Source: Vicinamibacterales bacterium
GTDB taxonomy: Bacteria; Acidobacteriota; Vicinamibacteria; Vicinamibacterales; UBA2999
NCBI GenBank assembly: GCA_030680175.1
Contig: JAUXWO010000010.1
Coordinates: forward strand, 1 to 64,000
Reading direction: 5' to 3'
Length of the DNA: 64,000 nucleotides
Position numbers and translations under genes: made by a program. A model generated the notes under the pieces. It was given only the letters and a program-made list of their open reading frames with translations. It was not told where the DNA came from and ran no database searches. Below are positions 50,826 to 52,198 of this stretch, in pieces; the stretch's first letter is position 1; every line of letters begins with the position of its first letter.

Positions 50826-50963
50826 GAGAGGAACCTCCTGCCCTCTCCTATTGCGACTCGCGTGCCAACGCCGTTCGGCCCGTAACTCGTAGCGCGATGG
50901 CGTGTCCGTCCCCTGGAGCGGACGCGCGCGCGCGTGCCGGGGGACAGCGGGCGCCGGCGTGGC

Positions 50964-51127
50964 TAGTGTCCTGGAACCGTGATTCGTCACACAATTCCCG
51001 GGCGGGGCATCCCGGCTGGCGGCGTTGCTTCTCCCTCAAATACGCCCAGTATTCTCGGTCGTCGCGCCTTGCCAGCCGGGCGCCGCGCTCCGGGACTTAT
51101 GCAACGAATCACGGTTCCAGGACACTA
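50964..51127. mobile_element. 164-bp MITE with perfect 24-bp terminal inverted repeats
   Basis: The ends TAGTGTCCTGGA and TCCAGGACACTA begin perfect 24-bp inverted repeats, and the arms continue imperfectly for about 55 bp (CCCGGCTGGC against GCCAGCCGGG). No reading frame is inside. The outer TA pair could be a TA target duplication, as made by IS630/Tc1-mariner elements. Insertion lies at the 3' end of the VWFA gene, whose TAG stop (51125-51127) uses the TA of this border plus one element base. No parent transposase is in the window. Confidence 0.75.
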
Positions 51128-52198
51128 CGGCGCCGCGACGTAGCCGCGACGCGCGCGGACGCGGAGCGAGGGGTTCGTCACGCTGACGTCGATGGTGTGC
51201 CACCGGTTGTCCCGGTGGCCGGGGCTCGGGTAGCCCAGATAGTACTGCTGGCTCAACTCGTCGGCGATGCCGCGCGTCGCGGGATCGAGATCGCGCGGCG
51301 CGCGGATGATCTCGGTGCGGCCGCCGCTGTCGTCCGTGATCGCGCGCAGCGCCGACACGTTGACGCGATCCCCGGTCCCGCCGCCGCCGGAGGGCGGCAT
51401 CATGGGTGGTTGGGGCGGGGGCAGCGGGCTGCCGCGCCGCCCGCCGCCGCCGGGAATCGGGAACGGGTTCGGGATGGGCGGCCGGAAGATCGGCGGCTGT
51501 CGCGGCGGGTTCCGCGTGACGGTGGTCTCGCCGCGCGCATCGATGCCGATCGCGTAGACCAGCACTTCCGTCTCGCGAATCAACCGCGCCAGCTCGCCGG
51601 CCGTCGTGCGGCTGTTGGTGTCGTTGCCGTCGGAGATGACGAGCAGCGCCTTCTTGCGATGACGGCCCGACTGCGCCATCGGGGCGGCCTCGGCCACCGC
51701 GTCGTAGAGCGCCGTGCCGCCCGCGGCGGACAGCCGGCCCAGCCGCCGGCTCACTTCCCGGCGATCGGTCGTCCACTCCTGCACGAGCTCGGCGTGCGTG
51801 CTGAACCGGTAGACGAACACCTCGTCGTCGGGGCGCAGCAGATCGAGAAGGAACCGGTCGAGCGCATCCCGCGCCGCCGCCATGCGGTCGCCCGCCATGC
51901 TGCCGCTCGTGTCGAGCACGATCCCGAGGCTCACCGGCACGCGCTCGCTGTTGAAGTGCGTCACCTCCTGCGGTTCGCCATCGTCGCGCACGACGAAGTC
52001 GGTGAGACGAAGGCCGCTGACGAACCGGCCCGCGCGGTCGGTGACCGTGGCCGTGACGTTCACGAGCTCCACGCCGCTGCGGAAGCGGAAGCCTTCCTGG
52101 CCGGCGAGGCCGGCCGTGCCGAGGAGCACGAGCGCCGCCGTGGCGGAGGCGAGCGGGCGCCTCCAGCGGAGGGCGGCCGGACGATCGTGCCGGGTCAT
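51125..52198 (-). CDS. VWFA-related acidobacterial-type secreted protein
   Basis: A 357-residue protein with a signal peptide (RPLASATAALVLLGTAGLAG) and the ordinary acidobacterial VWFA layout: an initial NVTATVTDRAGRFV beta segment, a VWA domain with the metal site LDTSGSM and VISDGNDTNS, a Pro/Gly-rich insert (about 240-285) and the C-terminal SQQYYLGY and RARRGYVAAP. The ATG at 52198 overlaps the upstream gene by ATGA. The stop is at the border of a MITE, so a few natural C-terminal residues may be missing or altered. It probably works in the envelope with the next genes. Confidence 0.87.
   Translation of the reverse strand: MTRHDRPAALRWRRPLASATAALVLLGTAGLAGQEGFRFRSGVELVNVTATVTDRAGRFVSGLRLTDFVVRDDGEPQEVTHFNSERVPVSLGIVLDTSGSMAGDRMAAARDALDRFLLDLLRPDDEVFVYRFSTHAELVQEWTTDRREVSRRLGRLSAAGGTALYDAVAEAAPMAQSGRHRKKALLVISDGNDTNSRTTAGELARLIRETEVLVYAIGIDARGETTVTRNPPRQPPIFRPPIPNPFPIPGGGGRRGSPLPPPQPPMMPPSGGGGTGDRVNVSALRAITDDSGGRTEIIRAPRDLDPATRGIADELSQQYYLGYPSPGHRDNRWHTIDVSVTNPSLRVRARRGYVAAP

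Follow-up and report, generated by a model that had tools for sequence, protein, structure and literature searches.

A gene for a VWFA protein in the window (the whole stretch of 64,000 nucleotides of a Vicinamibacterales genome analysed here) ends exactly where a short element with inverted ends begins. This arrangement raises the question of whether the element created the end of the gene or landed on one that already existed, and of what kind of element it is. The features concerned are the following.

50964..51127, no strand assigned: whole MITE including the putative TA duplications, 164 bp, a full-length hairpin
50964..50965, no strand assigned: left putative TA target duplication, within the CTAG at 50963-50966
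50964..50987, plus strand: left terminal inverted repeat with TA, a perfect match to the right end and an IS630-like end (L212, L214, L216)
50999..51093, no strand assigned: conserved core of the MITE family, common to copies with differing inverted repeats
51104..51127, minus strand: right terminal inverted repeat with TA, the reverse complement of the left end
51126..51127, no strand assigned: right putative TA target duplication, equal to the first two bases of the minus-strand VWFA stop codon
51125..51127, minus strand: VWFA stop codon TAG, with TA from the putatively duplicated target and G from the terminal base of the element
51125..52198, minus strand: VWFA gene, TIGR03436 (acidobact_VWFA), about 357 aa, C-terminus RRGYVAAP, start predicted

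The element is a near-palindrome of 164 bp whose perfect 24-bp ends are bordered by TA and whose arms continue to pair inward as one long hairpin, and the exact coordinates agree on this point with the preliminary description. Its left end, TAGTGTCCTGGAACCGTGATTCGT, occupies 50964-50987 on the plus strand and recurs as a perfect reverse complement at 51104-51127; these are the only two matches in the window at up to three mismatches, where 0 would be expected by chance. A segment of 191 nt containing the MITE folds into a hairpin of -75.4 kcal/mol, compared with -39.2 +/- 3.6 for shuffled sequences (z -10.1), and none of 200 shuffles folds as well. Gene prediction places no gene inside the 164 bp, a short, non-coding stretch bounded by inverted repeats. 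Should TA be the target duplication, what remains as the strict element is the 160 bp between the two TAs (50966-51125), given also as 161-162 bp minus a TA copy.

Its earlier identification as a MITE is supported by the many copies at unrelated loci, with precise borders and TA on either side; the repeat is a mobile family. The suggested search for identical ends elsewhere in this genome (G000) yields 10 dispersed copies with precise borders at unrelated loci, four with identities of 96-100% (the window copy included), three of 84-85% and one of 77%, the remainder being one 104-bp short form and one core-only match with other ends. Of 59 relatives from the same family and order, 31 also carry copies, and weaker matches to the core extend to a small number of genomes farther away in the phylum (overall, 25 of 396). 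Short forms that retain both ends and lack a large part of the core occur in G020 at C1:127469-127551 (about 82 bp) and C50:99683-99741 (about 58 bp), and the short form of this genome, at C11:197853-197956 (about 104 bp), likewise has intact ends and a largely missing core. An autonomous copy was sought in G020, whose copies have identical 18-bp ends, and only MITE-sized copies and the 82- and 58-bp forms were found. Repeated, mostly intergenic palindromes also recall repetitive extragenic palindromes of the REP/RAYT type, an origin that is extremely improbable here: the element measures 164 bp against 20-40 bp, and it has identical, TA-flanked ends against a tag at one end (REP features as given in PMC3733652), and its ends match those of IS630 elements.

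The VWFA stop codon reads as the complement of 51127-51125: the border TA comes first, and the G is the complement of the terminal C of the element, so that the TAG does start exactly with the border TA, as first described. The match of the encoded protein to TIGR03436 extends to position 323 of the 324 in the model, and, like the window protein, 33 of 39 orthologs stop exactly four residues past R(R/K)GY, which confirms that RRGYVAAP lies at the family-typical place. Stop codons among the 39 orthologs are TGA in 16, TAG in 20 and TAA in 3; nearly all VWFA homologue records are named Acidobacteria or Vicinamibacterales, names that together with the TIGR03436 match point to an acidobacterial host, and the MITE is absent 3' of the gene in all 11 orthologs with downstream sequence displayed. 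As judged from these sequences, the C-terminus is natural and the protein is not truncated by the element. Since the end is a natural one, the insertion most likely struck a pre-existing stop codon and would have rebuilt it; between the two alternatives offered at first, namely that the insertion hit the natural end or created it, the orthologs argue for the former. An empty site from a close strain was not found, the nearest genomes searched belonging to other genera, and the nearest VWFA homologues, at about 60-69% identity, have flanks too diverged for alignment.

The proposed source of mobility was an IS630/Tc1-mariner-type transposase not present here. Its absence holds for this draft genome assembly, in which neither a search with the IS630 domain DDE_3 nor a comparison with a related IS630 transposase gave a match; the full-length insertion sequence with the same inverted repeats that might have been expected in the genome is likewise missing from this assembly. 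The proposed type is supported by IS630 elements of the order, whose ends are of this kind and are flanked by CTAG. In G051, a DDE_3 match lies inside a 1158-bp element with the ends TAGTGTCCCGTCCCAG...CTGTGACAGGACACTA and CTAG on both sides. Two reading frames at L143 in G051 carry HTH_32/HTH_29 and DDE_3, the frame being broken in this copy, and close relatives of the L143 transposase are single open frames of about 366-389 aa. The two frames, at L143:899-2052, meet around 'LDRT' and are either broken or read by frameshift. When the N-terminal part of the G051 transposase was searched in 162 genomes of the order, relatives were found in 52. Both ends could be placed for 20 fetched IS630-type elements of 1.1-1.2 kb, and all are TAGT...ACTA and flanked by CTAG (20/20). 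In addition, elements of about 1.4 kb at IS630-type transposase matches in L139 (G006) and L227 (G158) have TAGTACC or TAGTACTAC ends and CTAG-like borders.

Both major end types of the copies in this genome occur among the insertion sequences of the order: TAGTGTCCTG/TAGTGTCCCG on L212, L214, L216, L217, L218 and L225, and TAGTCCCCTGGA on L221, L222, L226 and L228. The TAGCAGCCCGTGG end type, seen in the L010 copy and in many relatives, was found on no insertion sequence. Over its first 28-31 bp, the MITE matches the ends of L214, L212 and L216 at 77-82%, similar and not identical, and the core gives only short, chance-level matches to the IS630 elements tested. G051 houses both an IS630 element (L143/L212, end TAGTGTCCCGTCCCAGTAG) and a MITE (L027, end AGTGTCCCGTCCCAGTGG). 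The MITE would have been moved in trans by the transposase of an IS630 element whose TAGTGTCC/TAGTCCCC ends match its own. The copies and their borders, the matching CTAG-flanked IS630 ends, the scarcity of CTAG, the coincidence with stops and the natural C-terminus are observed; the act of transposition, the duplication of TA and the identity of the transposase responsible for this copy are what we infer. The best explanation is that the window element very probably belongs to the non-autonomous MITEs of the IS630/Tc1-mariner type and landed in the TAG of the VWFA gene itself.

Among the 65 copies with clear ends, TA is present on both sides of 51 and CTAG on both sides of 38. Beyond what was described at first, the preferred target is therefore CTAG and not merely TA, a target at which duplications of 2 bp (TA) and of 4 bp (CTAG) are difficult to separate. 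The base outside TA is other than C on 23 of 130 sides and the base inside is other than G on only 2 of 130. Because the outer base varies and the inner G hardly does, these sequences fit a duplicated TA, a terminal G that is part of the element, and a target that reads CTAG in most cases, though not in all. The flanks of the window copy are C-TA and TA-C on the plus strand, and the simplest empty site is GGC TA CGG; the reconstructed site on the minus strand would read GCG CCG TAG CC. The element would have been pasted into the TA of a CTAG-like site, here the TAG of the VWFA gene itself, with duplication of the TA. With an element proper that begins with G and ends with C, TAG would be remade at both borders and the protein left unchanged. 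Alternatively, CTAG may have been duplicated in the window copy and a synonymous change from CCC to CCG may have followed. In G038, three copies (L037, L038 and L113, in each case near position 1460-1630) carry CTAAG in place of CTAG at both borders, which suggests a 3- to 5-bp duplication in that lineage.

The CTAG flanks also bear on a different origin, in which a transposase of the IS481 or IS5 type would have duplicated the 4-bp CTAG and would act on ends that open with TGTCC. The targets of IS481 and IS5 contain CTAG, and the presence of CTAG on both sides of 38 of the 65 copies is in line with such an origin. MITEPsy1, which is possibly derived from IS5, duplicates CTAG or YTAA (PMC3189936). 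This origin is nevertheless very unlikely, because IS630 elements with the same ends are present in the order and the base outside TA varies when the inner G does not. An IS481 source, suggested by the CTAG flanks and the TGTCC ends, was rejected, as the three rve_3 genes of this genome lack the ends of the MITE family.

The preference of the IS630-type MITE for CTAG explains much of its position at a stop codon. In 861 kb of contig stretches of this genome, which include the window and some stretches picked for carrying copies, CTAG is seen 159 times where base composition predicts 2356, a depletion of about 15-fold. Of the 147 CTAGs outside elements, stop codons account for 79 (54%), intergenic sequence for 55 and gene interiors for 13. 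Comparable deficits are found in G020 (74 seen against 675 expected), G005 (35 against 248) and G046 (16 against 174). Since CTAG is depleted and just over half of the remainder are stop codons, an element that seeks CTAG mostly meets stop codons; with the site almost gone from coding sequence, insertions would fall on stops. Gene ends being taken from the calls of a simple self-trained gene finder, a predicted gene ends at the border TAG in 9 of the 10 copies of this genome, the tenth, L004, having lost TA on both sides (CCAG...CTGG). Genes ended by copies encode ordinary proteins, namely an FGE-sulfatase, MurB, a zinc alcohol dehydrogenase, PAP2, a response regulator and a solute-binding protein, and several of these run to the C-terminal end of their family (FGE-sulfatase to 255/255, MurB_C to 98/99, the alcohol dehydrogenase to the end of its PDB homologues). 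Insertion at a stop codon, which the preliminary description had missed, is thus the usual outcome for this MITE family in this genome, and no report of recurrent stop-codon insertion by a bacterial MITE appeared in the literature searched, as far as titles and abstracts tell.

The coincidence of 9 in 10 is barely higher than the 59% that CTAGs outside genes would give (p ~0.04), and 33 of all 65 clear-ended copies lie at stops. A separate recognition of stop codons is needless, since the CTAG background gives most of the coincidence; selection against non-stop sites may add to the bias. In four relatives' copies (L043, L078, L124, L125), each border coincides with the stop of one of two convergent genes, as if the two stop codons had once shared one palindromic CTAG. 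For a high-GC genome, a simple rule emerges, in which site-specific targeting and depletion of the site from genes together lead to harmless stop-codon insertions, and annotators of such genomes should expect mobile elements fused to gene ends.

Retention at gene ends for the benefit of the host, as a bidirectional terminator or an mRNA-protecting hairpin, would also place copies at stops, and a long hairpin with compensatory changes, a core better conserved than the ends and the copies between convergent genes are in line with it. So is a slight excess of stop matches over the CTAG expectation in four genomes (19 of 30 copies against 12.8, p 0.013). Such a function is rather unlikely, given that many copies lie between co-directional or divergent genes, that the CTAG background alone yields most of the stop coincidence, and that a palindrome of IS630 type could keep its arms paired without any use to the host. 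Readings as a terminator or an RNA family were discarded, there being no terminator-like site with a T-run and no Rfam match.

The IS630-type MITEs also differ from one another in an uneven way. Within each of 61 full-length copies, the left and right ends agree at 0.91 on average; from one copy to another, agreement is 0.61 for the ends and 0.79 for the core. By column, conservation reaches 0.86 in the core of about 95 bp versus 0.64 and 0.61 in the ends, values biased to some degree towards core conservation, since the similarity search that collected the copies used a query containing the core. Among pairs with core identity of at least 0.80, 274 of 766 have end identity below 0.6, and no pair combines end identity of at least 0.85 with core identity below 0.6. 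Compensatory changes affect 18 of the 22 end pairs and 14 of the 23 pairs in the core. MITEs typically retain their ends and lose their middle, and a conserved core with differing ends is the reverse of this usual pattern. Three causes are conceivable: IS630 lineages may have traded ends, long palindromes may undergo arm-to-arm correction, or the core may have a function. A modular MITE superfamily can be put forward only tentatively, one in which a selected core of about 95 bp swaps ends to ride on IS630 lineages and uses stop codons as safe harbours; in such a superfamily, insertion at gene ends would be harmless because of the scarcity of CTAG and the terminal G and C bases that remake TAG at both borders.

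Among known systems, the IS630/Tc1-mariner insertion sequences (IS630, ISY100) resemble the MITE in their TA borders and in the kind of ends found on the 20 elements of the order, which were identified by their IS630-type transposase. A preference of IS630 for TA within CTAG is stated in the title of Tenzen and Ohtsubo 1991, as quoted in PMC2170065, and is shared by the MITE. Unlike these elements, the MITE encodes no transposase, and nothing convincingly like its core occurs in the insertion sequences compared. RUP, a pneumococcal repeat unit of 107 bp with 108 copies that has been proposed to be mobilised by IS630-Spn1, is likewise short and non-coding, with ends like those of the IS630 family and TA targets (PMC2229807); however, RUP favours insertion into IS elements, whereas the MITE described here concentrates on stop codons and has a core conserved across end types. 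Correia/NEMIS elements of Neisseria are MITEs of about 107-155 bp (PMC2229807), but belong to another host group. MITEPsy1 of Pseudomonas syringae, a MITE of about 100 bp, also inserts at CTAG or YTAA, and differs in its 4-bp duplication, its GGAAGGTCTG... ends and its supposed derivation from ISPsy2 (PMC3189936).

A further observation concerns the borders of L004 and L118, which both read CCAG...CTGG: the two TA sites are altered and the arms still pair, as though the sequence of one had served to correct the other.
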